A stretch of DNA of 64,000 bases, taken from assembly GCF_003287935.1 (NCBI RefSeq), contig NZ_CP030287.1:6723227-6787226 (forward strand), in the 5' to 3' direction. The notes under the pieces are model-generated. The model had not been told where the DNA came from. It worked only from the letters and a program-made list of their open reading frames with translations, and searched no databases. The position numbers and the translations under genes are program-made. This DNA is from Streptomyces sp. ICC1 (GTDB lineage Bacteria > Actinomycetota > Actinomycetes > Streptomycetales > Streptomycetaceae). Shown in pieces: positions 6,524 to 53,568 of this stretch. The stretch's first letter is position 1; every line of letters begins with the position of its first letter.

Positions 6524-8068
<1,545 letters not shown>

Positions 8069-8114: not shown

Positions 8115-8163
8115 GTACGGCCGCACGTGCGGGGTGACGCCGTGCGGGGTGACGCCGTGCGGG
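8115..8163. repeat. Tandem repeat in ALDH leader
   Basis: The 15-bp unit ggggtgacgccgtgc is present twice, with a partial third copy, upstream of the aldehyde dehydrogenase gene. Confidence 0.5.
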
Positions 8164-8178
8164 CCCGGGCGGACTCGT

Positions 8179-8204
8179 GGTCCGACGGTACGTACTGTCG
8201 GACC
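8179..8204. promoter_or_regulatory. 26-bp near-perfect palindrome (operator candidate)
   Basis: Arms GGTCCGAC and GTCGGACC enclose a GTACGTAC core; only one symmetric base pair breaks the symmetry. It lies between the aldehyde dehydrogenase start and the siderophore-gene remnant, as expected for a dimeric or tetrameric repressor site. No adjacent regulator gene remains. Confidence 0.6.
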
Positions 8205-8266
8205 GCACGAACGGTTTCCCCGCTCGACGGCGGGTCGACGGACTGCCCCCCGTCGGATCCTCGTGC

Positions 8267-8690: not shown

Positions 8691-8759
8691 TCGGGCCCGG
8701 GTCCGGACGCGGACCCGGGCCCACCCTCGCCCGCCGCCCCCGACCTCCGCCTGCCCCAG

Positions 8760-9388: not shown

Positions 9389-9440
9389 TCCCCCGTCCGT
9401 GCGGCCGCTGTCGGTGGCGCCCCGTAGGGTTGGCACTGCT

Positions 9441-11411
9441 ATGACGAAGCCCTCCCTCCCCGACCTGCTGCACGCCGCCGTCTCCGCCGTCGGCGGCACG
9501 GAGCGCCCCGGCCAGGTGGCCATGGCCGAAGCCGTCGCCGAAGCGATCGACGGCAACTCCCACCGCCTCATCCAGGCCGGTACCGGTACCGGCAAGTCCC
9601 TCGGCTACCTGGTGCCGGCCCTCGCGCACGGCGAGCGCGTGGTCGTCGCCACGGCGACGCTGGCCCTTCAGCGCCAGCTCGTCGAGCGCGACCTGCCCCG
9701 GACGGTGGAGGCGCTGCATCCGCAGCTCCACCGCCGCCCGCAGTTCGCCATGCTCAAGGGCCGCTCCAACTACCTGTGCCTGCACCGCCTGCACGAGGGC
9801 GCCCCGCAGGACGAGGAGGAGGGCCTCTTCGACCAGTTCGAGGCGGCCGCCCCCACCAGCAAGCTGGGCCAGGACCTGCTGCGCCTGCGCGACTGGGCGG
9901 ACGAGACCGAGACCGGCGACCGCGACGACCTGACCCCGGGCGTCTCCGACAAGGCCTGGTCGCAGATCTCCGTGTCCTCCCGCGAGTGCCTGGGCGCGAC
10001 GAAGTGCGCGTACGGAGCCGAGTGCTTCGCGGAGGCCGCCCGTGAGCGGGCCAAGCTCGCGGACGTCGTCGTCACCAACCACGCGCTCCTCGCCATCGAC
10101 GCGATCGAGGGCGCGCCCGTGCTCCCGCAGCACGAGGTGCTGATCGTCGACGAGGCCCACGAGCTGGTCTCCCGGGTGACCGGAGTCGCCACCGGCGAGC
10201 TCACCCCCGGCCAGGTCAACCGCGCCGTGAAGCGGTCGGCGAAGCTGGTCGACGAGAAGACCGCCGACTCCCTGCAGACGGCCTCCGAGACCTTCGAGCG
10301 CGTCATGGAGCTGGCGCTCCCCGGCCGCTTGGAGGAGATCCCGGAGGACCTCGGCTATGCGCTGATGGCCCTGCGGGACGCCTCGCGCAGTGTGATCTCG
10401 GCGATCGGCACCACCCGCGACAAGTCCGTCCACGACGAGGACGCCGTGCGCAAGCAGGCCCTCGCCGCCGTGGAGAGCGTGCACGGGGTGGCGGAGCGGA
10501 TCATGGCCGGCTCCGAGTACGACGTCGTCTGGTACGAGCGACACGACCGCTTCGGCGCCACCCTCCGGGTCGCTCCGCTCTCGGTCTCTGGCCTGCTGCG
10601 CGAGAAGCTGTTCGAGGACCGCTCGGTGGTCCTGACCTCGGCCACCCTCAAGCTCGGCGGCGATTTCAACGGCGTCGCGGCGTCGATGGGCCTGTCCCCG
10701 GAAGGCGTCGAAGGCGACGACGTACCTCAGTGGAAGGGCCTGGACGTCGGCTCGCCGTTCGACTACCCGAAGCAGGGCATCCTCTACGTCGCCAAGCACC
10801 TGGCCACCCCCGGCCGCGAGGGCACCCGCGGCGACATGATGGACGAGCTCGCCGAACTGATCGAGGCGGCCGGCGGCCGCACCCTCGGACTGTTCTCCTC
10901 CATGCGCGGCGCCAAGGCGGCCGCCGAGGAGCTGCGCGGCCGGCTCGACAACCCGATCCTGCTGCAGGGCGAGGAGACGCTCGGCGAGCTGATCAAGAAC
11001 TTCGCGGCCGATCCGAAGACCTGCCTGTTCGGCACCCTGTCGCTCTGGCAGGGCGTGGACGTGCCCGGGCCGAGCTGCCAGCTGGTGGTCATGGACCGGA
11101 TCCCGTTCCCGCGCCCCGACGACCCGCTGATGAGCGCCCGGCAGAAGTCGGTCGAGGAGCGCGGCGGCAACGGCTTCATGTCCGTCGCGGCGACGCACGC
11201 GGCGCTGCTCATGGCCCAGGGCGCCGGCCGGCTCGTTCGGGCCACCGGCGACAAGGGCGTCGTCGCGGTACTGGACCCCCGGCTGGCCACGGCCCGGTAC
11301 GGGAGCTTCCTGCGGGCCACGCTGCCGGACTTCTGGTACACCACGGACCGCAACCAGGCCCGCCGCTCGCTCGCCGCGATCGACGCGGCCGCGCAAGCCG
11401 AGGGCAAGTAG
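9441..11411 (+). CDS. ATP-dependent DNA helicase, DinG/XPD-like
   Basis: A 656-residue superfamily 2 helicase. Walker A is AGTGTGKS at 46-53, the Walker B box DEAH at 237-240, and the last motif reads QGAGRLVRATGDKG. Four cysteines (C113, C183, C189, C195), spaced as in XPD/DinG proteins, should bind a 4Fe-4S cluster needed for 5'-3' unwinding. The likely role is resolving DNA or R-loop structures during repair. Convergent with lexA, separated by a strong hairpin. ATG 9441 is chosen because the homologous region starts there (the frame is open from 9399). Confidence 0.9.
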   Translation: MTKPSLPDLLHAAVSAVGGTERPGQVAMAEAVAEAIDGNSHRLIQAGTGTGKSLGYLVPALAHGERVVVATATLALQRQLVERDLPRTVEALHPQLHRRPQFAMLKGRSNYLCLHRLHEGAPQDEEEGLFDQFEAAAPTSKLGQDLLRLRDWADETETGDRDDLTPGVSDKAWSQISVSSRECLGATKCAYGAECFAEAARERAKLADVVVTNHALLAIDAIEGAPVLPQHEVLIVDEAHELVSRVTGVATGELTPGQVNRAVKRSAKLVDEKTADSLQTASETFERVMELALPGRLEEIPEDLGYALMALRDASRSVISAIGTTRDKSVHDEDAVRKQALAAVESVHGVAERIMAGSEYDVVWYERHDRFGATLRVAPLSVSGLLREKLFEDRSVVLTSATLKLGGDFNGVAASMGLSPEGVEGDDVPQWKGLDVGSPFDYPKQGILYVAKHLATPGREGTRGDMMDELAELIEAAGGRTLGLFSSMRGAKAAAEELRGRLDNPILLQGEETLGELIKNFAADPKTCLFGTLSLWQGVDVPGPSCQLVVMDRIPFPRPDDPLMSARQKSVEERGGNGFMSVAATHAALLMAQGAGRLVRATGDKGVVAVLDPRLATARYGSFLRATLPDFWYTTDRNQARRSLAAIDAAAQAEGK

Positions 11412-11435
11412 ACGCAGCCCAAGTGGACGCGGCCC

Positions 11436-11480
11436 AAGCACGCGCAAGGCAAGCACGCGCAAGGCAAGCACGCGCAAGGC
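11436..11480. repeat. 15-bp tandem repeat, three perfect copies
   Basis: AAGCACGCGCAAGGC occurs three times head to tail (11436, 11451, 11466) just after the helicase stop codon, before the terminator hairpin. Confidence 0.9.
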
Positions 11481-11508
11481 AACCAGGTGCAGGGCAGAAG
11501 GCACAAAG

Positions 11509-11543
11509 CAGCTCCGGGACCGGCGCAGTGGGTCCCGGAGCTG
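11509..11543. terminator. Hairpin between helicase and lexA genes
   Basis: Perfect 13-bp stem CAGCTCCGGGACC / GGTCCCGGAGCTG with a 9-nt loop between two convergent genes. It probably serves both directions; no U tract, as is usual in Streptomyces. Confidence 0.75.
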
Positions 11544-11561
11544 GATGGGGGCGCGGGGAGG

Positions 11562-12353
11562 TCAGACCCGGCGCAGTACGGCGACGACCTTGCCCAGGAT
11601 GGTGGCCTCGTCGCCGGGGATCGGCTGGTACGCGGCGTTGTGCGGGAGCAGCCAGACATGGCCGTCCTCGCGCTTGAACCGCTTGACCGTGGCCTCGCCG
11701 TCGAGCATGGCTGCGACGATGTCGCCGTTCTCCGCGACCGGCTGGCGACGGACCGTGACCCAGTCGCCGTCACAGATCGCGGCTTCGATCATCGAGTCGC
11801 CGACGACCTTGAGGCAGAACAGTTCGCCGTCACCGACCAGCTGGCGGGGGAGCGGGAACACGTCCTCCACCGACTCCTCGGCGAGGATCGGGCCACCGGC
11901 CGCGATCCGGCCGACCAGGGGCACGTACGAGGCGGCGGGCTTGCCCGTGGTGTCGGTGGGCTGCGAGCTGGGCTGGTCGGACCCGCGCACCTCGTAGGCC
12001 CGCGGGCGGTGCGGATCGCGGCGCAGGAAGCCCTTGCGCTCCAGGGCCATCAGCTGGTGCGCCACCGACGACGTGCTGGACAGGCCGACCGCCTGGCCGA
12101 TCTCCCGCATCGACGGCGGGTAGCCGCGCCGCTGCACCGAGTCGCGAATGACCTCGATGACCCTGCGCTGCCGGTCCGTGAGTCCGGAGCTGTCGGCGCG
12201 GATGCCTGGAGGTCGCCCTGGCATCGAGCGTGCGGGGCGTACGGGCTCCGCCTCCGGGTTCAGGCTTGCGTCATTCATGGCATGCACCGGCTCGAGTCGG
12301 CTCTGGGAGCGGTTCTGGGCAGTGATGGTGGCACTGTCTGCGGTGGTGGTCAC
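11562..12353 (-). CDS. lexA: SOS-response repressor LexA
   Basis: A 263-residue repressor of the DNA-damage regulon. A winged helix DNA-binding domain (about 58-120; [22 protein letters not shown]) is followed by an S24 self-cleavage domain. The scissile bond is A152-G153 in GRIAAGG, the catalytic serine S187 (GDSM) and the lysine K224 (TVKRF). RecA-stimulated autocleavage inactivates it. GTG 12353 is preferred because gagaggggcc precedes it; residues further upstream (to 12425) would cross the operator. An SOS box lies 64-78 bp upstream, so it autoregulates. Divergent from nrdR-nrdJ. Confidence 0.95.
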
Positions 12354-37588: not shown

Positions 37589-38419
37589 GTGATGATCAAA
37601 GTGGGCGAACCGCGCAGCCTCGGCCTTCCTGCTCCCGAGGCGCGGTTGCGCTTCGGGACGGAACTGCAGGAGCTCGGCGGCGGGCCGCGGCGCCGCTTGC
37701 TGATGGTGGACGACGAGCCCGCCTTCGAGCTCAGCTTCTACTGCGGCACGTGCCCGCTCCTGTTCCGCCGGCTGGAGACGGCGAGGGAGAAGCTGTCCCT
37801 GGAGAGCATGCAGCAACGGCTCACCGGAGCGCTGGACGATCCGGACGACGGCGGCGTGATCGATGCGTTCGGTGCCTTGCTACCGGAAGGCGAGTACCTT
37901 CCGCTGCTCCTGGACGTGGAACCCCGGCTGGTCTTCCCCGGCAAGGAGGGCGACTACTTCAGCGGCGAGCAGGTCACGGCGTGGGGAATCGATCAGTTCT
38001 GGGGGCTCCCGGAGTACCCTCACACCCCGTACTACCGGACCTTCGAGACCGCCGTCGATGCGGACGCCCACCTCTACGAGTTCGTCGTGCCCATGGTTCC
38101 CCCGACCTGGAACGTGAGAGCGTGCGTCGAGGAGTACGTCGCACTCATGGAGCGGGGAACGGTCCCCACGGCGGTGGCGATCTCCACGCTGGACGTCTGC
38201 CAGTCCGCCCTCGGCCTGGCAGATGACCCTGCCGCGCACTGGGGCCTGACCCACTTCCTGCTCGACGGCCACCACAAACTGGAGGCCGCCGCCACGGCCG
38301 GCCGGCCGGTGCGGCTCCTCTCGCTGCTGACCTTGGGTGAAAGCCTGGCCGGAGCCGAAGACGCCGCCCGGCTGCCCGCCCTGCGCACCCGCCCCCGCTC
38401 GGCCCGAGTGACCGGATAG
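37589..38419 (+). CDS. Hypothetical protein, conserved-looking
   Basis: A 276-residue protein (GTG 37589 or ATG 37592) I do not recognise. It is globular, without signal peptide or membrane segments. Notable pieces are LLMVDDEPAFELSFYCGTCPLLFRR, a PEGEYLPLLLDVEPRLVFPG stretch, and HFLLDGHHKLEAA near the end, which contains a DGHHK motif that could bind metal or a nucleotide. Similar frames occur as stand-alone genes in Streptomyces. It is divergent from the DUF2716 gene with repeats B/C in between. Confidence 0.65.
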   Translation: MMIKVGEPRSLGLPAPEARLRFGTELQELGGGPRRRLLMVDDEPAFELSFYCGTCPLLFRRLETAREKLSLESMQQRLTGALDDPDDGGVIDAFGALLPEGEYLPLLLDVEPRLVFPGKEGDYFSGEQVTAWGIDQFWGLPEYPHTPYYRTFETAVDADAHLYEFVVPMVPPTWNVRACVEEYVALMERGTVPTAVAISTLDVCQSALGLADDPAAHWGLTHFLLDGHHKLEAAATAGRPVRLLSLLTLGESLAGAEDAARLPALRTRPRSARVTG

Positions 38420-38799
38420 TCGGCCCGCCTAGACAAATTCGTGCTCGAAAGCGGTGTGCACGGACTGGTGCGTCGGGCCAGGCCGGCCATTCCGCTGGGA
38501 CTGAAGCGCAGGCCCAGGTCGTAGTCCTCCACGTGCTGGATGACGGCAGCGTCGAGGGCGGAGGGCGTGGATCCGCCCATCGCGTCCCGCGTCCGGGGGT
38601 CTCGGGAGCGCCGTGCCAGGGGAGAGGGCGGGTGGCCAGGACATACGTTCTGCTGCCCGGCCTCGGCTAGCAGCCGGTGGCGGGCGAGGCCGGCGCGCGC
38701 GGGCGCGGGCGCGGGTGTGGGCGGATTGCCGGATTCGGTGAAAGCGCGCGGTAGGAGGGGGCCGTGCGCATAGAGTCCCAGAGTCCCAGTTCGGGAAAC

Positions 38800-39073
38800 T
38801 TGCTCCCTGCGCTTGCGGGGATGGTCCCTGGTTGTCGGCGCCGGCCCCGTTGAGGGTGAACTGCTCCCCGCGCTTGCGGGGGATGACCCGTACCAGTGCC
38901 AGAGAGCGGCCCGTGACGTGCTCTGCGCCCTGCGCCCCGCAGGGATGACCCCGCTCTCATCGCCGCCGGCAGATCCGTGGCGTACGCCTCTCCGCATCGG
39001 CGGGGGATGAACCCGGGTTGGTGGTGCCGTACTCCACACCCGCCCATTGCGCCCCGCGCCCGCGGGGACGCCC
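38800..39073. CRISPR. Degenerate type I-E-like CRISPR array, five repeats
   Basis: Five 29-bp repeat-like units lie at 38800-38828, 38861-38889, 38923-38951, 38986-39014 and 39045-39073 (spacings 61, 62, 63, 59 bp; spacers 30-34 bp). The best copy starts CTGCTCCCCGCGCTTGCGGG and ends GATGACCC, the look of actinobacterial I-E repeats with a GCGGGG stem. The other copies have drifted. No cas genes are in the window and the AT-rich leader expected beside a live array is not evident. The 380 bp before it contain no gene I can support. Confidence 0.72.
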
Positions 39074-39109
39074 ACCGACCCGTGTCTGCGCCGGTCCGTG
39101 GACAATCGC

Positions 39110-42100
39110 ATGACGCACGAACTGGGGTGGGGGAGCGTGGCGGCAGTGCAGCGTGAGGTAGGCGAGGCGGGCGCGGTCCTGTGGGCCGAGCGGCTGTTCC
39201 GGAAGAAGGTCAAGCCCGGGCTGGACGTGCCCGAGCCGCGCGGGCCGGTGGCGACGCGCATGGCCGTCGAGCGGTTCGGCGAGCTGTACGCCGACATCGA
39301 GGGGGTCGTGCAGGAGTCCCTCGAGGGGGCACGCGCGGTGGCGAAACAGCTGTCCAGCGACCGCCTCCAGGGCCTGTCCGAAGTCGTACAGAACGCCGAG
39401 GACCTCGGAGCGCGCGAGGTCCGCGTCATGATCACCGGCGGGGAACTGCTGCTGGCCCACGACGGTGACCCCGTACGCCTGCGCGACGTCATGCCGCTCT
39501 CCATGCCCTGGGTGACCAGCAAGGCCGCCGACGCCCGGGCCACCGGCCGGTTCGGCATCGGCCTGATGACGCTCTACGTGTTCTCGCCCTGGATCGAGGT
39601 GCACAGCGGGCACTACGGGCTGCGGATCGCGGAATCGGGGCTGGCCTGGGCCCCGCCCCGGAAGTTCCCGCCCGCCTTGGTGGCCGATGCCGATGCCGAT
39701 GCCGATGCCGACGACGGCAGCCGCAGTCGCAGTAGCAGCCGCCCCGGCGCCCGCCGCGCCTGGACCGTCTTCCGGATCCCCCTGAAGACCCGGCGCCTTG
39801 ACCCGTCCGACATGGACGCGTGGCTGCGGTCCTGGGGCCACGAGGCCCTGCTCTTCCTCCGCAGCGTTTCCCGCGTGACCCACCTCGACGCGAAGGGCCG
39901 GGTACGCCAGGGCCTCGGCCTGGAGCGGGTCCCGGACGTCGGTTTCACCGCCGAGATCGCGGGCCACGACGTCGACGTGGCCGTATCGCAGGTACGCGAC
40001 GCCGACGGCCTCCACTGGCAGGTCTGCCGTGCCACCGTGGCCACACCGCCCGGCGTCGCCCCCCTGCGCAAGGCCGCGGCCGAGACCATCGACCTCGGCG
40101 TCGCCGTACCGGTCGCCGCGAAGGGACCCGCCGGTCACATCGGCCAACTCGGCCACATCGGCCCACTCGGTCAACTCGGTCACATCCACGTCGGTCTCCC
40201 CGTGACCGGGCTCGGGCTTCCCCTGCGCCTGCACGCGCCGTTCGACCCGCTGCCCAACCGGCAGGGCCTGTCGGAGACCGACTGGAACGACGCACTCGTT
40301 CCCCGGGTCGCGGACCTCTGGGCCGCGGCGCTGGTGGACCGCTTCCGCCGCGACCCTGCCACGGCGTGGCACATGCTGCCCCTGCCGCCGGCCTCCGGGG
40401 CGGGGCGTGCCGCCGACAGCCGTGCCGCCGACAGCCGTGAGGGCGCGGCCGTGGTCACCGCGCTGGAGCAAGCGGTACTGGCACGCTCGCGCACGCAGGT
40501 GTGCGCCCGGATGACCGTCGAGGTTCCCGGCCGGGGCCCGATGCCCCTGGGGGAGCTGGCCCTCGAGGTGGAGTCCCTGACCGGCGTGCTCTCCGAAGCC
40601 GACGTCGAACGGGTGGTGCACCGTCCCGCCTTGCCGCTCGCCGCGCGTGACAACGTCGGCCGCTACCGGGCGGTCCTCTCGGACTGGAGGGCACACGGTG
40701 GAAGTGACACGCGCCCAGCACCGCGCGAGGTCGACATCCGGGACGCGATGGTCCTTTTGCGCGACCGTGATCGCCCGCTGGAGTCGGTGGTCGAGCTGGC
40801 CGCCGTGGGCGTCTCCTACAGCCCGGCCGCCCTGCGTCTCGCCCACTTCACCTGGCTGGCCGACGATTCCGGCGCACGCCACCAGCCACCGGGCGAGTCC
40901 GACCTGCGGATGTTCACCGACGGCCGCGGCGGCCTCGCGGCCGGGCTCGGCTTCGCGCACGTCCTGCATCCCGTCTTCCTCGCCGACACCCCGGCCGCCG
41001 CCGCGGTCCGGCACTGGCTGCGCGCGAAGGCCGCCCTCCTGACCGAGGACGACCCGGCCGCCGTCCTGCGCCGGCTGTCCGACTACGGACGTACGCGCGT
41101 CGGCGCGGCCCTCTCCCTCACCGACGGGCAACTGGTCCAGCTCAAGGACGCCTTCGACAAGGTCTCGGACAACGACCGGCGGAGCCTCGGCCCCGGCGTG
41201 GGCCGGGCCGTCCTGCTCAAGGCCCGCCGGTACGACAAAGCAGGGACGCCGGAAGAGGGCGAAGCCATGCCCTCCCAGGCCTACCTCCCGCCGGGCATCG
41301 ACGGCACCGACCGCCTCGAGAGCTTCGCCCACGCGGCGGGATCCACCCCCGGCCTGTGGTGGATCCGCCCCCGCTACCACCAAGTGCTGCGCTCCTCCGG
41401 AGCCTCCGGAGCCTCCGGAGCCTCCGGGGGCCTGAGCCCGCACGCCTTCCTGCGCCTCCTCGGAGCCGAGGGCGCGCCACGGCTCCGCGAGCACCCGGAG
41501 CAGACCATCCGCCTCAACCGGAAGGCTCTGCCGCTGCACGTTCCCGGAACGCCCCCCGCGCGCACCCAGGCCATGGCCGGGAGCGAGTACACGCTCGACG
41601 ACATGACGAGCCCGGACCTGGCCGCGGTCGCGCGCGGCATCGCCGCCGACCCGGACCCCGTCGTACGCAGGCAGCGGGCGATCGCGCTGATCCACGTCCT
41701 CGCCCGTTCCTGGGCAACCCGGTTCTCCGGCCACGAGCGGGTGAAGCACGGAGACGCCTACCGCGTCTGGAGCCTGAAGCCGGCCATTTCAGCCTTCTGG
41801 CTTTGGAAGTTGCGTGAGATCCCCTGGCTCGACAACGACCAGGGCCAGGCCACGGCGCCGGGCGAAGGCCTGCGCCTGCGGACGACGGGCACGACGGCCG
41901 TCTACGGCGCCGACCCCGCGGGCTTCCTGCACCGCGACGTCCAACGGGCCGTCGGCCGCCGCGCCGACGTCCTGCGCGCCCTGGACATCGGCGGCGAGCC
42001 GACCATCGGCGACATCCTGGCGCACCTGCGCAAGCACCGTGAGGCGGAGCGCGCGGGAGGCGCGCGCGACACGGCCGGGGCCCGCATCCTGTACGAGGCC

Positions 42101-43933
42101 CTGGCAGAACGGATGGCCACACCGGCCACGCCCACGTCCACCACGACGGCTTCCTCCTCCACCTCCGCCACCTCCTCCACACTCCCGGACGGCGTAGCAC
42201 CGGCCGCCCTCGTACGCGCCTTCGCGGCGGGAGACGGCCTCGTCCTCACCGCGGTCGGCTGGCGCAGGCCGGCCCAGTGCCTGCGCGGCACACCGCTCTT
42301 CGGCCGGCTCCGTGCCTTCGCGCCCACCGTCCGGGGCGGCGAGGCGCTGTGGAAGGCCGTGGGGGTGCGGGAGCCGGCCGCCGACGACGCCGTCGGCGTC
42401 ATCAGGGAATTGGCTCCCGCGACGGCCTCGGAGCGGACGGTCGAGCCCTCGTCCGCCGACCAGACCGTGCTGCTGCAGTCACTCCAGTTCCTCCAGCACC
42501 TCGCGGCCGACGATCCGGTCGGGCTGGCGGGGCAACGGCTCGACCGGCTGCCGCTGTGGACCACCCGGGGGTGGGTCACCCAGCGCCCGGTGTACGCGGT
42601 CGAGGACGAGGCGGTGGCCGCGGGCCTCGCGGCGGTACGCGCGCCGGCCATCGCGATCTGGCACCCGGGCGCGGAACTCGAGCACTTCCGGGAGCTGCTG
42701 CCCCGCCTGCGCGTCGCCTGCCTGGGGAGCGAAGAGGTACGGCCGTCCGTGCCGAGGGGCGGCGGTGACCCCGCGCCCCGGGCCACGGCACTGGTCGCCG
42801 CCGCCGTCGGCCACCTCCACGAGGATCTGCAGCGCAACGACCCCGCGGCGGCCCGCGAGATCCTGGGCTCCTGGGAGGAACTGGCCGCCGTCACCGTCCG
42901 CGTGGACCCCGACCTGACCTGTACGGTCACCTTCCCCGCGCCGAGGACCGGAGCGCTCGCACCCACCCCGGCCGAGGTGCCCGTGGACCTGGCGGTCGAC
43001 TGGCAGGCGGGCCCCCTCTCCCCCCACTACACCCTCTACACCCGCGACCTCGCCCTCCTCGGACGCCCGGGCACCGGGCGGGCCCTGGCCGCGGGCTTCC
43101 GCGGACACCGCCGGGCGGTCGCCCAGGCATGGGGCGAGGCCTGGGAGAAGGCCACCGCGGGCCTGGACACGACGCGGATCGTCCGGGCCGAGGACCTGGC
43201 CCGCGAGGAGGAAGCGGCCGCCCTGGCGGTACGGGCCCAGCGCCTCGCGGCGTTCCAACAGGAGACGGCCGAGGCCGCAGAGGGCAAGCAGCCCAAGTCG
43301 CCACCACAGGCCGGCGGCGCGACGAGCCGCCCGACGGCCGCCCCCGCCGCCCCGGCGAACGGCACCACAGGGCGGCGCCTGGTCAACACGGACGAACTGC
43401 ACGTCGTACGCGACCGGGTCCAGCTCACCCCGCGCCGCACCCACCCTTCCCCGCCCTCGACGACCGCACCGGCCCGCCCCACGCTCTCCGAGCCCCGCGC
43501 GACCCCGGCACCACCGCGCCAGCGGAGCGCGCCGGTGTTCTACACGCCGGTGGACCAGGAGGATGCCGCGATGACCGTCGTGCGCAAGATCCTGGCCGGG
43601 GACGACGAACGACTGCGCGACCTGCGGACGCAACGGGGTCTGGGCGCGGACGCGGTGGACGAACTGGGCCGGTTCTACGAGGTGAAGTCCGTCCGCAACA
43701 AAGAACGGGACTCCGTCACGGTGACGCCGCACGAGTGGGAGCGGGCCAGGACGGAGAAGGACTTCTTCCTGGTGGTGGTCTCGGGCCTGGACTCGGAGTC
43801 GGAACAGACGGTGGCCCGCTTCATCCTCGACCCGTACGAGGAACTCACGGCCCGCCCCAGCCCGAACATCATCCTGAGCGGCATCCGCGCCTGCCAGAGC
43901 CTCTACTTCCCCCTGAAACCGGGGCAGGAGTGA
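39110..43933 (+). CDS. Giant sacsin/HSP90-like GHKL ATPase with C-terminal DUF3883 nuclease-like domain
   Basis: About 1607 residues, cytoplasmic. The N-terminal ATPase shows the N-box LSEVVQNAEDLG (E91, N95), the Mg/adenine motif AHDGD (D118) and the glycine lid GRFGIG (146-151), as in sacsin-type GHKL domains. A long helical middle contains low-complexity inserts (DADADADADD, HIGQLGHIGPLGQLGHI, SGASGASGASGG). The end (about 1490-1600) is DUF3883/NO VEIN, with DAVDELGRFYEVKS, a PD-(D/E)xK-like active site. This architecture suits a phage- or foreign-DNA-sensing effector. ATG 39110 is the first start after the CRISPR remnant. No partner gene is adjacent. Confidence 0.8.
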   Translation: MTHELGWGSVAAVQREVGEAGAVLWAERLFRKKVKPGLDVPEPRGPVATRMAVERFGELYADIEGVVQESLEGARAVAKQLSSDRLQGLSEVVQNAEDLGAREVRVMITGGELLLAHDGDPVRLRDVMPLSMPWVTSKAADARATGRFGIGLMTLYVFSPWIEVHSGHYGLRIAESGLAWAPPRKFPPALVADADADADADDGSRSRSSSRPGARRAWTVFRIPLKTRRLDPSDMDAWLRSWGHEALLFLRSVSRVTHLDAKGRVRQGLGLERVPDVGFTAEIAGHDVDVAVSQVRDADGLHWQVCRATVATPPGVAPLRKAAAETIDLGVAVPVAAKGPAGHIGQLGHIGPLGQLGHIHVGLPVTGLGLPLRLHAPFDPLPNRQGLSETDWNDALVPRVADLWAAALVDRFRRDPATAWHMLPLPPASGAGRAADSRAADSREGAAVVTALEQAVLARSRTQVCARMTVEVPGRGPMPLGELALEVESLTGVLSEADVERVVHRPALPLAARDNVGRYRAVLSDWRAHGGSDTRPAPREVDIRDAMVLLRDRDRPLESVVELAAVGVSYSPAALRLAHFTWLADDSGARHQPPGESDLRMFTDGRGGLAAGLGFAHVLHPVFLADTPAAAAVRHWLRAKAALLTEDDPAAVLRRLSDYGRTRVGAALSLTDGQLVQLKDAFDKVSDNDRRSLGPGVGRAVLLKARRYDKAGTPEEGEAMPSQAYLPPGIDGTDRLESFAHAAGSTPGLWWIRPRYHQVLRSSGASGASGASGGLSPHAFLRLLGAEGAPRLREHPEQTIRLNRKALPLHVPGTPPARTQAMAGSEYTLDDMTSPDLAAVARGIAADPDPVVRRQRAIALIHVLARSWATRFSGHERVKHGDAYRVWSLKPAISAFWLWKLREIPWLDNDQGQATAPGEGLRLRTTGTTAVYGADPAGFLHRDVQRAVGRRADVLRALDIGGEPTIGDILAHLRKHREAERAGGARDTAGARILYEALAERMATPATPTSTTTASSSTSATSSTLPDGVAPAALVRAFAAGDGLVLTAVGWRRPAQCLRGTPLFGRLRAFAPTVRGGEALWKAVGVREPAADDAVGVIRELAPATASERTVEPSSADQTVLLQSLQFLQHLAADDPVGLAGQRLDRLPLWTTRGWVTQRPVYAVEDEAVAAGLAAVRAPAIAIWHPGAELEHFRELLPRLRVACLGSEEVRPSVPRGGGDPAPRATALVAAAVGHLHEDLQRNDPAAAREILGSWEELAAVTVRVDPDLTCTVTFPAPRTGALAPTPAEVPVDLAVDWQAGPLSPHYTLYTRDLALLGRPGTGRALAAGFRGHRRAVAQAWGEAWEKATAGLDTTRIVRAEDLAREEEAAALAVRAQRLAAFQQETAEAAEGKQPKSPPQAGGATSRPTAAPAAPANGTTGRRLVNTDELHVVRDRVQLTPRRTHPSPPSTTAPARPTLSEPRATPAPPRQRSAPVFYTPVDQEDAAMTVVRKILAGDDERLRDLRTQRGLGADAVDELGRFYEVKSVRNKERDSVTVTPHEWERARTEKDFFLVVVSGLDSESEQTVARFILDPYEELTARPSPNIILSGIRACQSLYFPLKPGQE

Positions 43934-45097: not shown

Positions 45098-45820
45098 TTG
45101 AGCGCCACCACCAGCGAACACGACCTCTTCGAGGCCCTGCACGCACCGGCCTTCGCCTTCACCAGACGCGCATGGGTCGATGCCGCACCCGCCCGGGTCT
45201 ACGACCTGGTCACCGACGTGTCCGCGATCGGCCGCTGGAGCCCCAACGCGACCGACGTCACGTTCGACGAGGGCGCCGGCCCTCGGGTCGGCGCCTGGTT
45301 CAGCGGCCGCAATCGGAAGGACGGCAGGGAATGGACCACCCGCTCCCAGGTCGTACGGGCCGACCCCGGCAACGCCTTCACCTTCGTGGTCGGCGGAGCC
45401 GAAGCCGGCATCGTGCAGTGGAGCTGGACCTTCCGCTCCCAGGGACGCGGAACCGTCGTCGAGCAGGCACCCCGACTGCCCCCGGCACCCCGACTGCCCG
45501 GACCACCCAGCGTCCCCGGCCGCCCGGGACCGCTCGCGGGCACCCGCCCCCCGAAGGGCGGGTGCCCGCGAGCGGTCCGGTCCCCGGCAGGGGCAGGGCC
45601 TACCGCGCGCCCGCCGAAGCGTGCGCCGCCGGGGCGGAAGCCGCGGGCAGCTGCGCCCCGATCCCCGCGGAGCCGAGCTGGGCCTCCATGTCGTCGAGGG
45701 CGCCGCGCACCGCAGCGATCCGCAGGAGGAGCTCGTCGGCGACGTCCACCTCCGCTTCCGCCCGCTGCGCGGCCCGCTGGCTCTGCTCCTCCATCTCCCG
45801 TGCCTCCTCCAGGGCGTTGA
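45098..45820 (+). pseudogene. SRPBCC (polyketide cyclase-like) gene, 3' end lost
   Basis: TTG 45098 with AGGAGG 5 bp upstream begins a normal START/SRPBCC domain: FAFTRRAWVDAAPARVYDLVTDVSAIGRW, then GAWFSGRNRKDGREWTTRSQVV and VQWSWTFRSQGRGTVVE. At about 45462 the similarity stops. The frame then runs through Pro/Arg-rich sequence (APRLPPAPRLPGP), across a terminator hairpin and antisense into the ion-channel gene until 45820. The C-terminal helix that closes the ligand cavity is missing, so the product is probably inactive. Confidence 0.65.
45527..45578. terminator. Very strong hairpin after the ion-channel gene
   Basis: Perfect 23-bp stem (left arm starts GGACCGCTCGCGGG, right arm ends CGAGCGGTCC) with a 6-nt loop. 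It lies 22 bp past the channel gene's stop and inside the read-through frame of the SRPBCC gene. Confidence 0.85.
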
Positions 45821-46520
45821 GGACCACGCCGATCAGCACGTTGAGCAGGACGAAGGAGGCCAGGAGCACGTAGGAGGCGTAGTAGACGATGCTCAAGGGG
45901 GACACCGCGAGCCCGGCGTACACGGCGTCCCCGAGCCCTTCGAGCGTCATCAGGAGGAACAGGGTCAGCCCGGCCCGGCCGATCGAGCCGTAGTGGGCGG
46001 GGTCGTGGCCGGAGAAGCAGATCCACCCGATCATCGCGTACACGTAGAGGATCAGGGCGCCCACGAACAGGAAGCTCACGGTGCCGGGCAGGCTCCGGCC
46101 CACGGCCACCAGGAGGACCCGCAGCTGGGGCATGAACCGTGCCGTGCGCAGGACGCGGGCGAGTCGCAACAGCCGCAGCAGGGTGGTGTTCTCCCGCAGG
46201 AACGGGATGAAGGCCGAGGAGACGACCAGCAGGTCGAAGAGGTTCCAGGGGTCGCGGAAGAAAGCTTTCGGCCGGTCGGCGTGCGCCGCCAGGCGGATCA
46301 CCATCTCCAGGGTGAAGGCGACCAGGCAGAAGTGCTCGGTCATCCCGAGGAGCCGGCTGTACTCGGCGGACAGTCCGCTGTACGTCTCGACGCCCAGGAG
46401 TGCCGCGTTGAAGAGGATCACCGCGAAAACGGCGAGCGAGAACGCGGGGGCCTCGCACACGTCTCGGCAGTGCGCGGCCAGCCTTCCACGCCTGGTGTCC
46501 ACCGCGGTCGGGTCGGTCAT
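45600..46520 (-). CDS. Voltage-gated cation channel-like protein (ion transport family)
   Basis: A 306-residue membrane protein with the six-segment layout of single-domain bacterial sodium channels. Segment S4 has an arginine every third residue (R116, R119, R122, R125, R128). The pore filter reads TLEGLGD at 192-198, where NaChBac-type channels have TLESW. A cytoplasmic coiled coil follows S6 (EEAREMEEQSQRAAQRAEAEV), which normally drives tetramer formation. GAGGGAG precedes ATG 46520. Ion selectivity is uncertain because of the altered filter. Confidence 0.82.
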   Translation of the reverse strand: MTDPTAVDTRRGRLAAHCRDVCEAPAFSLAVFAVILFNAALLGVETYSGLSAEYSRLLGMTEHFCLVAFTLEMVIRLAAHADRPKAFFRDPWNLFDLLVVSSAFIPFLRENTTLLRLLRLARVLRTARFMPQLRVLLVAVGRSLPGTVSFLFVGALILYVYAMIGWICFSGHDPAHYGSIGRAGLTLFLLMTLEGLGDAVYAGLAVSPLSIVYYASYVLLASFVLLNVLIGVVLNALEEAREMEEQSQRAAQRAEAEVDVADELLLRIAAVRGALDDMEAQLGSAGIGAQLPAASAPAAHASAGAR

Positions 46521-46799
46521 CGTGCTCCCTCGTACGGGCCGCCGGCCGCCCCGGTCCACACGCGCCGACGTGGCCCGCGACGGAAGACGAGGCTGCCGAG
46601 GCGGTGTTCATGTTCCGCGTCGTGTAACGCCGGACGGCGCGAATCGAGACGCCCTGGCGCACGACATCGCCCGATCGGGTACACGGTGCTCCGCGCCCGG
46701 TCGATACCCGGGTCTGAGCCCAGGTCAGCGCCCGGGCAGGCACCCCGGTCCGCGCACGGCCGTCGGCCGTTCGGGGGCGCCGTCGCGGAGGATGGGCCC

Positions 46800-48149
46800 A
46801 TGACGAATCGTGACGGTGCGACGGCGCAGGCATGGGCCGCGCTGGGCGGGGCGGACGGACTGGCCGGACGGGTGTCCTACCGGGGCGCGAACGGCCTGGG
46901 CGACGGGCCGCTGCCCGTGCGGGAGCTGGCCCGCGCCACGGTCGGCGCGTGCACGCTGGCCGCGGCGGAACTGGCCGCCGTACGGGCGGGGGGCGATCCC
47001 GGCGACGTGGCGGCCCAGGTGGTCGACGAAGGCGCCGTGGCCACGGCGTTCGTCAGCGAGCGGCACCTGCTGGTGGCGGGTCGGGCACCGGTGGTCTTCG
47101 CGCCGCTGTCCGGCTTCTGGCGGGCGGCCGACGGGTGGGTGCGGACGCACGCCAACTACCCGCACCACGAGGCCGCGCTGGTACGGGCCCTGGGCGCGGG
47201 GACGCCGCGGGGCGTGGCGCGCGAGATCTCCCGGCGGACGGCGGTGGTCGTCCAGGAGGCGGTGTACGCGGCGGGCGGGCTGGCCGTGGCCGTGGCCCGG
47301 GAGTACGGGGAGCCGCAGCCGCTGGTGGAGTCGTGGGCGTCCGGCGGGCGCGGCCGGGAACTGGGCGGGAGCGCGAACGGGCCGCCCATGGCGGGAGTAC
47401 GGGTGCTGGACCTGACCCGGGTCATCGCCGGACCGGTGGCCACCCGGACGCTCGGGCTGCTGGGCGCGGACGTGCTGCGGATCGACGCGCCGGAGCCGGC
47501 GGAGTCCGACGACGCGTACGCGGACACCGGCTTCGGGAAGCGCTCGACGCTGCTCGACCTGCGCGCGGCCCGGGACCGGGAGGTGTTCGAGGGGCTGCTC
47601 GCCGGCGCCGACGCGGTGGTGACGGGCTACCGTCCGGGGGCGCTGGCCCGGTACGGGCTGGACGCGCGGGAGCTGCTGGCGCGACGGCCGGACCTGGTGG
47701 TGGCGGAGCTCTGCGCGTGGGGGTGGCGCGGTGCCTGGGCCGGGCGCCGGGGCTTCGACTCGCTCGTGCAGGCGGGGTACGGGATCTCCGCCGCCTGCGG
47801 TGACGGGGACGGGCCCGGGGTGCTGCCCGCGCAGGCCCTGGACCACGGGACGGGGTACCTGGTGGCGGCCGGTGTCCTGCGGGCCCTCGCGGACGGCGGC
47901 GGCCGGGGGCTGCGGTTCTCGCTGGCCGGGACGGCCTCGTGGCTGGTCCGCGAGGTGCCGGGGGCCGCCGCCGCGGTCCCGGGCCCCCCGATGTCCGCGG
48001 CCGCCGTGCCCGGTGGTGGGCCGGAGCCGTGGCTGCGCGAGACCGCCTCGGGATACGGGCCCCTGCGGCACGCGGTGTCCCCGCTCGGGGGCGCGACGTG
48101 GGGCCGGGGACCCTCCCGGTGGGGGACCGACCGGCCCGGCTGGCTCTGA
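46800..48149 (+). CDS. CoA-transferase family III (CaiB/BaiF-like) protein
   Basis: A 449-residue enzyme. The second half has the family III signature: GVRVLDLTRVIAGPVATRTLGLLGADVLRID, DLRAARDREVFEGLLAGADAVVTGYRPGALARYGL and GFDSLVQAGYGI. The aspartate nucleophile would be in this region. The N-terminal half is a divergent or swapped copy of the fold (residues 1-190). It is likely to transfer CoA between carboxylic acids; the substrate is unknown. GGAGG lies 7 bp before ATG 46800. The 279-bp gap upstream has no gene; it holds a ccCGATCGgg palindrome at about 46672. Confidence 0.82.
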   Translation: MTNRDGATAQAWAALGGADGLAGRVSYRGANGLGDGPLPVRELARATVGACTLAAAELAAVRAGGDPGDVAAQVVDEGAVATAFVSERHLLVAGRAPVVFAPLSGFWRAADGWVRTHANYPHHEAALVRALGAGTPRGVAREISRRTAVVVQEAVYAAGGLAVAVAREYGEPQPLVESWASGGRGRELGGSANGPPMAGVRVLDLTRVIAGPVATRTLGLLGADVLRIDAPEPAESDDAYADTGFGKRSTLLDLRAARDREVFEGLLAGADAVVTGYRPGALARYGLDARELLARRPDLVVAELCAWGWRGAWAGRRGFDSLVQAGYGISAACGDGDGPGVLPAQALDHGTGYLVAAGVLRALADGGGRGLRFSLAGTASWLVREVPGAAAAVPGPPMSAAAVPGGGPEPWLRETASGYGPLRHAVSPLGGATWGRGPSRWGTDRPGWL

Positions 48150-48236: not shown

Positions 48237-50261
48237 CTAGAAGTAGACGTTCCAGGTGACGCTGACCGAGGAGGACTTGCCCGCGGCGTCCGTCACCGTG
48301 AGGGTGCTGCTGCCGAAGCCCCAGGTGGTGGGGGTGCCCGAGACGGCCCCGGTGGCCGGGTTCAGGCTCAGGCCGGCCGGCAGGCCGGTGGCCTTGAAGG
48401 CGTACGGCTTGGTGCCCCCGGTGGCCTGGAGGTTCAGGCTGACCGGCTTGCCGATGTAGACGACCTGGTTGCCGGGGCTCTGCAGGACGGGGCCGGTGCC
48501 CGTGACGGTGGTGACCGTCCACGAGAACGTGGCGGAGCCGGTCTTGCCGGCGCTGTCGGTGGCGGTGACGGTCACGGTGGAGGTTCCGGCCGTGGTGGCG
48601 GCGCCGGTGATCGCGCCGGTCGAGGAGCCGATGGTCAGGCCGGCCGGGAGGCCGGTCGCGGACCAGGTGTAGGGGGCGGTGCCGCCGGTGGCCTTGACGG
48701 TGAGGTCGGCCGGGGCGCCGACGGCCGAGCTCTGGCTGCCGGGGTTGGTCACGGACGGGGCGGTGCCCGCCGTGGTGATGGTCCAGGAGAAGCCGGCCGA
48801 ACCGGTCTTGCCGGCGCTGTCGGTGGCGGTGACGGTCACGGTGGAGGTTCCGGCTGTGGTCGGGGTACCGGTGATCGTGCCGGTCGAGGAGGCGATGGTC
48901 AGGCCGGCCGGGAGACCGGTCGCGGACCAGGTGTAGGGGGCGGTGCCGCCCTCGGCGCTGTTCTTCAGCTCGACGATCCGGGCGCCGATGACGCCGCTCT
49001 GGGCCGACACCGCGGAGACGGTGACGTTGCCCGGCTGCGGGGTGGAGGTGAGCAGGGTCAGCTTGAACCGGGTCAGGGCCTCGATCACGGGCTGGAAGAT
49101 GGTGAACTTCTCACCGCTGCCCGAGGTGCAGGTGGCGCTGCCGCCGCCGGAGTGGAGGCCGACGGCCTTCCCGCCGGTCGCGGTCACGTAGGAGCCGCCC
49201 GAGTCGCCGCCCGCCGAGCAGGCGTTGGAGTACGAGAGGCCGTCGATGACCACGTTGCCGTAGTCCACGCTCTGGTTGACCTTCGTGACCTCGCCGCAGC
49301 GCATGCCGGTGGTCTGCCCGGAGCGGCATATCGCGGTGCCGACGACGGCCTCGGCCGAACCGGTGACCGTGATGGCCGCATGCGACCCGTCGCCCGCGAC
49401 CGTGGGGGCGAGGTTCCAGCCCGCCTGGTCCACGTCGACGACGCCCATGTCGCCCTCCTGGGCGTTGACGCTGCTCTTGCCGTCCTTGTTGGACGTGCCC
49501 ACGCGGGTCCCGTCCTTGCCGTACGCGGGCTGGTTGACGTCGTTGGTGCAGTGCCCGGCGGTCAGGAAGGTCTTGGCCCCTCCGGCGGTGCGGGTGGCCG
49601 GGAAGCCGATGGAACACGGGCTCTCGGTGCCCGGCACCCACTTCTCGCCGCCAACGGCGTCGGCCTGCTGGACCGGGCTCTGGGCGGTCTCGCTCACGTG
49701 GACGATGTCGCCCAGGGCGGCGATGCGGGCCGTGAAGGCATCGGTGGACGCGTCGCTAGCCGCCCGGTTCACGGTGATGTCGATGCGGTTGTTGCGGGTG
49801 TCGGGACCCCACGAGACCACCCCGGCCACGCCGGAGCCGATCTCGCGCGTCACCGTCCGGGCCGCGCCGCCCAGTTCGGCCGAGCCGTACCGGGCCTGCC
49901 GGGCGACGGCGCCCGCGTCCCGGACCAGCGCCGCGTCCGCGGCGTTGGAGACGGAAGCGTTCAGCCGCCCCGTGGAGGCGTCGAACCACATGCCCGCCAC
50001 ACGGTCACCGACCCGGCCCCGGATGAGGGTGGCCGCCCGGCCGGCGGCAGCCTCGTCGGCGACGCGGTCGCGCACCTGGTCGGCGGAGAGGTGGAGATCG
50101 CGCTGCATGGCCCGGAGGATTTCCGGGGACACGGAAGGCCCGGGCCGCTCGGCCTGCGTGGCGTGCGCGGGCAGGGAGCCCAGGGCGCCGAGCGCCACGA
50201 CGGCCGTGACCGAGGCGGCCGCAACGGAGCGCCACAGAGGCCTGTTTGACAGATTTCGCAC
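48237..50261 (-). CDS. Secreted streptogrisin-like S1 protease with three Ig-like repeats
   Basis: A 674-residue exported protease. Signal peptide about 1-35 (ending AHAT), then an alpha-lytic/streptogrisin-type pro-region (about 45-200), then the mature S1 domain with H in TAGHC, D in EGDMGVVD and S in GGDSGGS. Cysteine pairs match the disulfides of streptogrisins. The C-terminal ~270 residues hold three putative Ig-like (He_PIG) repeats with the shared wording GGTAPYTWSATGLPAGL, probably for wall or substrate binding. GTG 50261 with aaggga upstream fits the signal peptide start. Confidence 0.85.
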   Translation of the reverse strand: MRNLSNRPLWRSVAAASVTAVVALGALGSLPAHATQAERPGPSVSPEILRAMQRDLHLSADQVRDRVADEAAAGRAATLIRGRVGDRVAGMWFDASTGRLNASVSNAADAALVRDAGAVARQARYGSAELGGAARTVTREIGSGVAGVVSWGPDTRNNRIDITVNRAASDASTDAFTARIAALGDIVHVSETAQSPVQQADAVGGEKWVPGTESPCSIGFPATRTAGGAKTFLTAGHCTNDVNQPAYGKDGTRVGTSNKDGKSSVNAQEGDMGVVDVDQAGWNLAPTVAGDGSHAAITVTGSAEAVVGTAICRSGQTTGMRCGEVTKVNQSVDYGNVVIDGLSYSNACSAGGDSGGSYVTATGGKAVGLHSGGGSATCTSGSGEKFTIFQPVIEALTRFKLTLLTSTPQPGNVTVSAVSAQSGVIGARIVELKNSAEGGTAPYTWSATGLPAGLTIASSTGTITGTPTTAGTSTVTVTATDSAGKTGSAGFSWTITTAGTAPSVTNPGSQSSAVGAPADLTVKATGGTAPYTWSATGLPAGLTIGSSTGAITGAATTAGTSTVTVTATDSAGKTGSATFSWTVTTVTGTGPVLQSPGNQVVYIGKPVSLNLQATGGTKPYAFKATGLPAGLSLNPATGAVSGTPTTWGFGSSTLTVTDAAGKSSSVSVTWNVYF

Positions 50262-50446
50262 GGAAATCCCTTCATGGGGGGCATACCGGAGGCGTAGGCC
50301 GGTAGGGATGCACGTCCCGTGGGGGAGCACGGGACTCTTCTCGTCCCCTCGGAGCCCGCATTCGGGGGAGCCGCGGATGTGCGCTCCGGGGTGGCCAACA
50401 GAGTGGTCCCGGGCCGGTGTCGGGAGCATCGGAGGAATCCCTTGCA

Positions 50447-50534
50447 GCCCCGGTCTCTTGCCGGGCCTGCCCCGGTCTCTTGCCGGGCGCGCTCCGGTCT
50501 CTTGCCGGGCCCGCCCCGGGCTCGCCCGGGCCTT
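50447..50534. repeat. 22-bp tandem repeat with internal dyads
   Basis: Three close copies of gccccggtctcttgccgggc plus two bases (50447, 50469, 50491) and a degenerate fourth. Each carries a CCGG/CCGG dyad. They lie in the 523-bp gap between the protease gene and the divergent LuxR-type regulator gene. The rest of the gap shows GC-rich inverted repeats but no gene. Confidence 0.75.
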
Positions 50535-50784
50535 CCCCGGTCGCGCCGGCCGGGGAAGGCCCGGCACGGAGCACGGCGGGCCGTCCGGGCCGCGGCCCCC
50601 GCTCCTCCCGTGGAGGACCGCGGTGCGCCGGGTCTGCCACCCCGCACCCGGAGCGCGGACGGCCCGCCGTCGCACCACCATCGCCGGGACCGGCACCCCT
50701 TGGCATCAGGGGAAACCCTTGATCCCGCGGACCGGCCGCCCCGGCCGTTGTCTCCCGCTCCGCGGCCGCCTACGGTGCCCCTTC

Positions 50785-53568
50785 GTGAGGCCAGACACGG
50801 AGTTCGACACCACCCCGCCGGTCACCGGGGGTCCGCGCGCGGCCGCGGCGGCGACCGCCCGCGCCGTGGAAGCGCTCGACCGCGAAGGGCGGGTCGCGCT
50901 CGCCGGCCCCTGGGGCGCGGGCAAGACCACCGTCCTCGAGGACGTCCTGCGGACCCCGTCCGCCGGGGCCGGGCGGACGGCGCTGCGCGTCACCACGGTC
51001 GAAGGCGACCGGGAACACGTCTTCGGCGCGCTCGCCCAAATGCTGTCCCACTGCGGCCCGGCCGACTTCGGCTCGCTGTCGCGCGGTCAGGGCCAGGTGG
51101 TCGACCGGCTGCTGCACCGCGGCTCCGGCGAACCGCTCGCCGCCTCCGAGCAGTTGCCCGCCCGGCTCGCGGTGACCGCCCTGCTCTCCTCGGGCCGGTG
51201 GATCCTGGCCGTGGACGGGGCCCAGTGGCTCGATCCGGCCAGCGCCGACGTCCTCGGCTACGCCCTGCGCACCCTGGCGGCCCCCGGACTCACCGCGATC
51301 GTCACCGAACGCGTCCAGGGGCGGGCGCAGGCCGCGGCCCGCCTGCTCGGCGGGCACCCCGCCCAGGTCGACGTGGACCCGCTCGACGCCGAGGAGACGG
51401 CCGCCCTGCTCGGCGCGCACGGTCTGCCCACCCGCTGGGCGGGCCCCCTGCAGAGCCACTGCGGCGGCCACCGCCTGCTCACCGCCGTGTCCTGTACGGA
51501 ACTCGCCCGGCTGCCCGCCCCGGAGCGGCACCGGCCCGCCCTGTCCGAGCAGACGCTCGACGCGGCCGGGGCCTGGCTGCGGGCCGCGCTCCCCGAACCC
51601 GCCCGGCACACCCTGATGCTGGCCGCCCTGACCAGCCGCCCCTCGCTGCCCCTCCTGCTGAGGGCGGGCCGCTCCGACGCCGAGGAGCACCTGGCCCAGG
51701 CGCAGGCGGCCGGGGTGCTGCGCGTGGACCCCGCCGGCGCCGTCCGCTTCACGGCCGCGGCCCTGGCCCGCGCCGCGGCCCGCTCGGAGGGCCGGCCCCG
51801 GCGCGCGGCGGCCCACCTCACCCTCGCCCGGGCCGTGGGCGACCCGGTCCACGAGGTCCGCCACCGGGCCCTGGCGGCGAACCTGCCCGACCAGGGCCTG
51901 GCCGAGGACACCGAGGCCGCCGCGGCCACCGCCCGCGCCGCGGGCGAACGGGCCCTGGCCGCCGAGCTGTTCCACCTCGCCGCCGAGATCACCCCGCTGG
52001 ACCGGTCCGGCCTGCGCGTGCGCAGACTCTCGTACGCGGCCCAGGAGGCGGCCTGCGCCGGTTCCGTCGACATCGCCCGGCAGGCGGCCGACGCCCTGAC
52101 CGCCGGCCGGGCCGAACCCGCCGACCAGGTCACCGCGCTGCTCGCGCTCGTCGACGCCCACGGCCAGGCCCTCGCCGACCTGGAACCGCTGCTGGCCCGG
52201 TGCAGGGAACTGGCGACGGGCCACCCCGGCCTCCTCGCCGCCGTGGAACTGCGCGCCGCCATCGCCGCCAACATCGCCCACGCCGCCCCCGACCGGGCTC
52301 TGCGCGCGGCCACCCGGGCCGCCGAACTCGCCGCCGCCGACGGCCACCGGCCCTTGCAGGCCGCCGCGTTGACCATGCGGACCCGCATGGAACGCGTACT
52401 CGGCGCCGCCGACGCACCGCGCACCCTCGCCCGGGCCCTCGCCCTCGGGATCCCGGCCCAGCACTCCGGCATCCGCAACAGCGCCCAGTACCTCGCCGCC
52501 CGCCACGCCGTCTTCGACGACCGCCTGACGGAGGCGCGCGAACGGCTCGTGGAACTCCTCGCCCTCGCCGAACACGCGGGCGACGCCGAAGACCTGGTCG
52601 ACATCTGGCGCAGCCTCGCCGAGGTGGACACCCGCCTCGGCGCCTGCGCGCCCGCGCTCGCCTGGGCCGACCAGGCGGTACGGCTGTCGACCACGGCGGG
52701 CCTGTCCATGGGGCCCGCCTGGTACACCGCCGCGCTGACGCAGAGCGCCGCCGGATCGTTCGCGGCCGCCCTGCGCACCGCCTCCTGTGGTGCCCGCGCC
52801 TCGCAGGAGGAGGGCGACGGCCTGTACGTCTCGCGGAACCTGTGGGTCATGGGCGCGGTCCAGCTCCACACCGGGGACGTCGCCGACGCCGTGGCCTCGC
52901 TCACGGCCGTGGCCGAGGCGGAGCGCCACGTCCCGTCGGCCGACCCCGGCATGTTCCGCTGGCAGCCGGACGCGGTGGAGGCCTTCACCTGCGCGGGCCG
53001 GCTCGACCTGGCCCGGGAGCTCCTCGACCGCGCGCGGCCCGTCGCGAGCCCGGACGCTGCCGATTCGGGACCCCGGTCGGCGCTGGACCGCGCGCACGGC
53101 GTCCTGCTGGCTCGTACCGGCGCCGGGGAGGAGGCGAGCGGCGTACTCCACCGGGCCGCGGCCGCCTTCGGGCACCTGGGCCTGCCGCTCGAACAGGCCC
53201 GTACGCTGCTCGCCCTGGGCCGCGTCGAACGGGCCCGCCGCCGGCAGGCGGCCGCCCGCGCGGCCTGGGAAGCGGCCCGGGCCGTCTTCGACGACACCGG
53301 CGCCCGCCCCTGGCAGGAGCTCACCCGGGAGCTCCTCGACCGGGCGGGCGGCCCGGCGTCGGCCGCGGGCCCGGCCCCGGGCGCGGGCGGGCTGACCGAG
53401 TCCGAGTCGCGCCTCGCCGACCTCATCTGCCAGGGGGCCACCAACCAGCAGGCCGCCCAGCACATGTTCATCTCGGTCAAGACCGTGGAGGGCATGCTCA
53501 GCCGCGTCTACCGCAAGCTCGGCGTCCGCTCGCGCACCCAGCTCGCCGCGGCCCTCGCCGGGCCCTGA
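50785..53568 (+). CDS. Large ATP-binding LuxR-family regulator (LAL-type)
   Basis: A 927-residue regulator. Walker A GPWGAGKT at 41-48, Walker B-like [11 protein letters not shown] at about 135-145, a long Ala/Arg-rich helical region with TPR-like repeats (about 350-840), and a C-terminal LuxR helix-turn-helix (about 865-925; [45 protein letters not shown]). Such regulators act as pathway activators for secondary metabolism or hydrolases. It is divergent from the secreted protease gene and may activate it. GTG 50785 is chosen at the start of similarity. Confidence 0.85.

Follow-up and report, generated by a model that had tools for sequence, protein, structure and literature searches.

A tmtA (Tiamat) gene in Streptomyces sp. 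ICC1 predicted to join an Hsp90/sacsin-type ATP site to a nuclease-type domain

A 64,000-nucleotide stretch of the Streptomyces sp. ICC1 chromosome (positions 6723227-6787226 of a 9.03 Mb single-contig genome; hereafter, the window) carries a gene, tmtA, whose 1607-residue product is, as judged from a full-length profile match, TmtA, the sole protein of the Tiamat anti-phage system. We consider it probable that TmtA works as an Hsp90-like ATP clamp that would hold its C-terminal nuclease under control and act once a phage signal arrives; the family, the sites and the folds were computed, and from them we infer ATP hydrolysis, nuclease activity, the coupling of the two, the trigger and the target. 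Support comes from the full-length TmtA match, from ATP-site and nuclease residues identical in all 35 aligned sequences, and from the folds predicted at both ends. An initial annotation, made from the DNA letters, had proposed a single-gene defence system in which an ATPase sensor is fused to a nuclease; this logic is supported by the family to which the protein belongs, by its conserved sites and predicted folds, and by a survey of neighbourhoods, with the activities putative. The same annotation knew of no characterised system with such a layout, and here it was mistaken. The architecture is real and meaningful, yet it already belongs to a named system, and DUF3883, the domain at its C-terminus, was named a novel restriction endonuclease (REase) domain in 2013 (PMC3710099).

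Family assignment and intactness of the gene

The TmtA model of PADLOC (PDLC03968) aligned with residues 20-1603 of the 1607 in the protein and with positions 11-1481 of its own 1486 (E value 0, 1449.9 bits). TmtA was likewise the best model, at 1100-1808 bits, for five relatives taken across the similarity range (P0005, P0023, P0045, P0049 and P0067). The Pfam family NOV_C (PF13020, DUF3883) was recognised at residues 1510-1564 (23.3 bits, cutoff 22.1; E 6.7e-5), together with a sacsin match that stayed below threshold. NF047352 of NCBIfam (sacsin N-terminal ATP-binding-like) scored 61.3 bits against a cutoff of 50, in line with the sacsin-type ATPase that the initial annotation had read from E91 and N95. 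A C-terminal NOV_C/DUF3883 domain is typical of Tiamat, reportedly discovered by Millman et al. in 2022 as a single-gene anti-phage system. The window protein matches the TmtA profile end to end, no partner gene is seen, and no tested feature sets it apart; it carries low-complexity insertions near residues 201-214, 341-353 and 1007-1028 (identified by eye), where the structural model is poor. Its identity is about 32-57% to most Streptomyces relatives and 79-83% to two. In the published record, Tiamat is enriched in Actinobacteria, where it is almost always chromosomal, and its mechanism is given as unknown (PMC10482375); it is also counted among systems of unknown mechanism in PMC12926258 and was found in a Pseudomonas island hotspot (PMC12629846). 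A literature search on Tiamat/TmtA, with most subscription papers outside its reach, returned no mechanism.

The frame is intact, as first described (coordinates in Table 1), and ends with a stop codon at 43931-43933. Its GC (guanine plus cytosine) content by codon position, 0.77/0.55/0.91 in a window of 72.6% GC, is of coding type, and tmtA is therefore taken as a real gene. Elsewhere in the genome the protein finds no counterpart: TmtA and the NOV_C family each match once, both at the tmtA locus. The frame stays open back to a TTG at 39047, and the true start is uncertain, because the copy in a near-identical strain (P0002, on a 9.01 Mb contig; five differences over 1418 residues) begins at the codon matching GTG 39146. 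The P0002 protein diverges from the common sequence after residue 1431 and stops six residues further on, without the nuclease-type domain; judged from the two sequences, this is a natural loss of that domain in a close strain. The truncated copy and the decayed CRISPR repeats directly upstream would both suit a tmtA that is a silent or decaying remnant in its own genome. The window's frame, however, is full length and free of stops, with all alignment-invariant residues present, and we regard such a remnant as highly improbable.

Table 1. Features of the tmtA region (window coordinates; residues are those of the 1607-residue product)
Feature	Position	Strand	Remarks
tmtA (Tiamat) gene	39110..43933	+	1607 residues from ATG 39110; basis: frame, composition, PADLOC PDLC03968 TmtA
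Alternative tmtA start	GTG 39146	+	product 12 residues shorter; matches start of P0002 copy
Sacsin SR1/Hsp90 N-terminal type ATP-binding domain (predicted), residues 64-272	39299..39925	+	
E91..N95, catalytic-Glu and Mg-Asn type motif, D98 after	39380..39394	+	identical in 35/35
GRFGIG, ATP-lid glycine motif, residues 146-151	39545..39562	+	G146, F148, G149, I150, G151 in 35/35; R147 in 33/35
Hsp90 middle-domain-like region (predicted), residues 273-541	39926..40732	+	several TRAP1/Hsp90 alignments reach model residue 541 (root-mean-square deviation about 5-7)
R384, putative catalytic-loop arginine	40259-40261	+	35/35; equivalence inferred with PMC9880540
Large mixed alpha/beta middle, candidate sensor, residues 542-1459	40733..43486	+	no fold assigned; much confidently modelled
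PD-(D/E)XK nuclease-type domain (NOV_C/DUF3883), residues about 1475-1605	43532..43924	+	
Putative nuclease active site E1484 ... D1514 ... E1524-V-K1526	43559..43687	+	all four in 35/35
Decayed CRISPR array, five degenerate 29-nucleotide repeats	38800..39075	+	starts 38800, 38861, 38923, 38985, 39047; period 61-62 nucleotides

Conserved sites and predicted folds of the two ends

Conservation was counted on an alignment (A1) of the window protein with 34 of 66 homologues, 35 sequences in all. Invariant residues of the N-terminal part are E91, Q94, N95, D98, H117, G119, K138, G146, F148, G149, I150, G151, T219 and R384; the roles of E91 and N95 (Table 1) we take to be those of their Hsp90 equivalents, partly on general knowledge of that protein. 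Of the motifs AHDGD and GRFGIG, singled out in the initial annotation, H117, G119 and the glycines and hydrophobic residues of GRFGIG are fixed, while position 118 is D in 18 sequences and N in 17 and R147 varies in two.

A search of solved structures with the single window protein gave no matches; the sequence profile alone recovered sacsin SR1 structures (E 2.9e-9), which were also recovered by fold. In the fold search, residues 64-541 of the predicted structure matched Hsp90/sacsin, the alignments to Hsp90/TRAP1 running over this range at a root-mean-square deviation of about 4-7 angstrom. In the model, R384 follows a strand at 373-375 and precedes a long helix at 391-414. A catalytic loop between strand and long helix is described for sacsin and Hsp90 in PMC9880540, which also gives the sacsin equivalents of the Hsp90 ATP-site residues, with Asn replacing the adenine-contacting Asp, and assigns a putative catalytic arginine, Arg 474, to the middle-domain-like part of sacsin. 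The D/N variation at position 118 and the invariant R384 fit this pattern, provided that the residues correspond as we suppose. H117 had been considered as the adenine-binding position and was dropped, the sacsin alignment, read against the residue table of PMC9880540, appearing to favour D118. The N-domain fold and the ATP-site residues are common to the window protein and the SR1/SIRPT modules of human sacsin (SACS), and both would have an arginine further down, in the middle-domain-like part (PMC9880540). Sacsin has three Hsp90-like modules together with a DnaJ and a HEPN domain (PMC3710099), whereas in the window TmtA a single ATP site is recognised and the end is of nuclease type.

In the C-terminal part, E1484, D1504, R1506, G1512, D1514, E1524, K1526 and A1546 do not vary among the 35 sequences, and D1517 is kept in 33. 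The model of this domain matched mainly restriction and resolvase nucleases, a chain of the SPARDA defence complex tying for the top, and the conserved E, D and E-x-K lie within the predicted nuclease fold; we assign a putative catalytic role to E1484, D1514, E1524 and K1526 from the fold. Of the two ends, for which the initial annotation had proposed structure prediction, the C-terminal one gave the weaker match, to PD-(D/E)XK nucleases at about 1475-1605, and the N-terminal one the stronger, to Hsp90/sacsin at 64-541. Of the EVK site proposed there within DUF3883, E1524 and K1526 held, and the middle residue proved variable (V in 8 sequences, L in 21, I in 6); non-conservation of the ATPase and E-x-K residues, which would have spoken against the whole proposal, was not what the alignment gave. 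The leading fold matches of the C-terminal domain include the SPARDA nuclease subunit and the Hjc resolvases, both PD-(D/E)XK proteins. In SPARDA the nuclease is coupled to a short, guide-carrying Argonaute; in TmtA the nuclease-type domain is instead fused to an Hsp90-like ATPase. Plant NO VEIN, the developmental factor after which NOV_C is named and which has a sacsin-like ATPase part, has a C-terminal NOV_C domain in common with the window protein.

The same data bear on another reading of a Tiamat protein, in which inhibition would fall to the ATP clamp, for instance by trapping a phage protein in the manner of a chaperone, and the C-terminal domain would do no more than bind a ligand, nucleic acid or other. 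Hsp90 and sacsin both act as chaperones, over half of the protein lies between the two ends with no fold assigned to it, and the close C-terminal matches include NhoI and the N-terminal domain of Eco15I, solved (going by the titles) on methylated DNA, which may be binding modules. The fold searches barely probed residues 542-1459, their match lists being filled by one domain. A pure binding domain would nevertheless have no obvious need for E1484, D1514, E1524 and K1526, kept without exception, and we hold this reading to be unlikely.

Relatives, their neighbourhoods and the CRISPR relic

A protein search, in which the 7978 candidates with the most shared words were scored, gave 66 proteins at E <=0.001; the organisms named among them are Streptomyces, except for one Streptacidiphilus and two Yinghuangia. 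Scanning genome contigs with the single protein as query had found no relatives in 21 stretches. The alignment as query then found them, at 64 loci, a relative being encoded in 65 of 220 pattern stretches; at 55 of the 64 loci the match ran, by its ends, from residue 67 or before to at least residue 1592. Pseudomonas, Aromatoleum, Arthrobacter, Cellulosimicrobium and Geodermatophilus are represented, as are metagenome-derived Chloroflexi, Acidimicrobiaceae and others. TmtA relatives are mostly from Streptomyces and sporadic in other phyla. Six plasmid records contained matches, three of them covering at least 80%. Viral contigs yielded three loci, one with a near-full-length relative, and when they were scanned again, with the C-terminal alignment as query, the viral contig seen earlier was the sole result; phage records yielded one short partial match. 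The near-full-length relative lies at 7796-12187 of a contig classed as viral (IMGVR_UViG_3300037308_000711, locus L066), with 37% identity in the best segment over residues 50-1607. At a Streptomyces violaceus locus (L024, 9944-15014), the relative occupies two overlapping open frames, as if frameshifted.

Genes at these loci were called as open reading frames (ORFs) picked by composition, not from annotation. When 68 loci were clustered, the largest group besides TmtA was an integrase-like cluster present in 10 loci, one member of which was confirmed as Phage_integrase, and the next occurred in 5; no partner gene other than TmtA recurred in more than 10 of the 68. The Tiamat locus thus behaves as a single-gene system with no obligatory partner seen among these picks. 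Twelve of the 68 had been excluded from the neighbour survey beforehand (the window's own locus and partial or very weak matches) and six had no large plus-strand frame among the picks; the remaining 50 gave 164 neighbour ORFs. The scan took in 127 of these, at 46 loci, and passed over 37: ORFs shorter than about 100 residues, three longer than 900 (one scanned separately), the ORFs at four loci that nearly duplicate others, and a few frames that overlap or are fragments of TmtA. At three of the 46 loci (L007, L035 and L047) another large frame served as anchor, so that 8 of the 127 ORFs surround that frame, though in the same locus. TmtA pieces account for three of the 127.

Domains among the 127 include four Phage_integrase, three DDE transposase, three AbiEii and two GmrSD_C. 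At E 1e-15, PADLOC matched 93 families, against five, one member each (four GajB helicase models and mad2), in a control of 105 ORFs of 100-900 residues from nine 15-kb stretches of the ICC1 chromosome, a single genome. The 25 of the 93 families that were listed include SspE, Cas3g, type I and type III methyltransferases, AbiEi, PDC-S33, PDC-S36, mad3, mad6 and PD-T4-6, three members being TmtA pieces. Of ten neighbours picked by hand, four were confirmed singly (Cas3g, PDC-S36, SspE and a type I methyltransferase) and six had no match. Neighbours of the relatives therefore match PADLOC models more often than control genes do, clearly in direction and only roughly in size, which is the enrichment that the initial annotation had asked after.

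These loci also bear on whether TmtA might have a stress or housekeeping role of the kind played by plant NO VEIN or animal sacsin, its link to defence being only a matter of annotation. It has domain types in common with both, and Tiamat matches in plant-associated metagenomes fell on plant genome sequences (PMC12409356), so that Tiamat models catch eukaryotic relatives too, which fits a kinship to plant NO VEIN. Against this, the relatives are scattered over phyla without a conserved neighbour and in varied contexts, not the shared housekeeping setting that would have counted against a defence role; integrases, transposases and defence genes lie near some of them, and plasmids carry others. 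The gene is apparently dispensable, moreover, since the copy in the near-identical strain is cut short. A stress or housekeeping function is improbable.

The decayed CRISPR array reported beside the gene is present just upstream of tmtA, as five degenerate repeats; from repeat shape and period we take it to be type I-E-like. Repeat pairs at 58-64 nucleotide spacing number four in the window and none in 50 mononucleotide shuffles, and arose once in 40 first-order Markov sequences. The relic is real. Its adjacency, pointed out in the initial annotation, lends no support: in a search of 90 loci for this one repeat type, array-spaced copies turned up in the window, in the two loci that correspond to it and nowhere else, and no relative's locus had them. 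The relic was rejected as part of the system and looks incidental. Rfam gave no matches over 38400-39200. The genome has one cas8e match (PF09481; G000:C1:8422669-8424069, L077), about 1.66 Mb from the window; the surrounding 35 kb gave no array, and the relic consensus matched there at 20 of 29 positions at best.

The genes on either side of tmtA are of ordinary kinds, encoding a DUF2716 protein, an MmyB-like regulator and an ion channel, with one further ORF that has no family. Seven other ORFs of the window were compared with PADLOC, and the only matches, weak ones of helix-turn-helix type (best E 1.4e-4), came from the regulator. A perfect inverted repeat of 23 bp with a loop of 6 nucleotides (45527-45578) lies close to the end of the ion-channel frame and is shaped like a terminator. 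At 45180-48149 (+), a CaiB/BaiF-type CoA-transferase match covers the family profiles only up to about their midpoint, which suggests a truncated or frameshifted gene. The 1430-residue product of a frame at 49276-53568 (+) matches AAA_16, carries a LuxR-type helix-turn-helix at its C-terminus and resembles a large LuxR-family regulator.

A proposed clamp model for Tiamat

In the mechanism that we favour, the N-terminal third of TmtA would form an Hsp90/sacsin-type ATP clamp, the N domain (64-272) being followed by the middle-domain-like part, from which R384 would be supplied to the ATP. A phage component, or damage induced by the phage, would be sensed directly or via the middle part (542-1459). 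ATP-dependent closure of the clamp would then free or position the nuclease, and the C-terminal 130 residues, as a PD-(D/E)XK enzyme, would cut phage DNA or, in abortive infection, any DNA. Our confidence is slightly lowered by the neighbour survey, in which the counts are of families and not of proteins, 37 of the 93 coming from three proteins (at L030, L038 and L044), and so overstate the number of proteins.

It seems conceivable, as a more tentative proposal, that Tiamat uses an Hsp90-type clamp as an immune switch, a split ATPase completed by R384 that a phage signal reaching the middle part would throw to turn on a PD-(D/E)XK DNase. If true, this bacterial immune architecture would have eukaryotic relatives in sacsin and plant NO VEIN. 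The named residues E91, N95, R384, E1484, D1514, E1524 and K1526 make the gap in the Tiamat mechanism testable by a few point mutants. They also tie a protein of bacterial defence to plant NO VEIN and to sacsin, which is mutated in ARSACS, a human ataxia.
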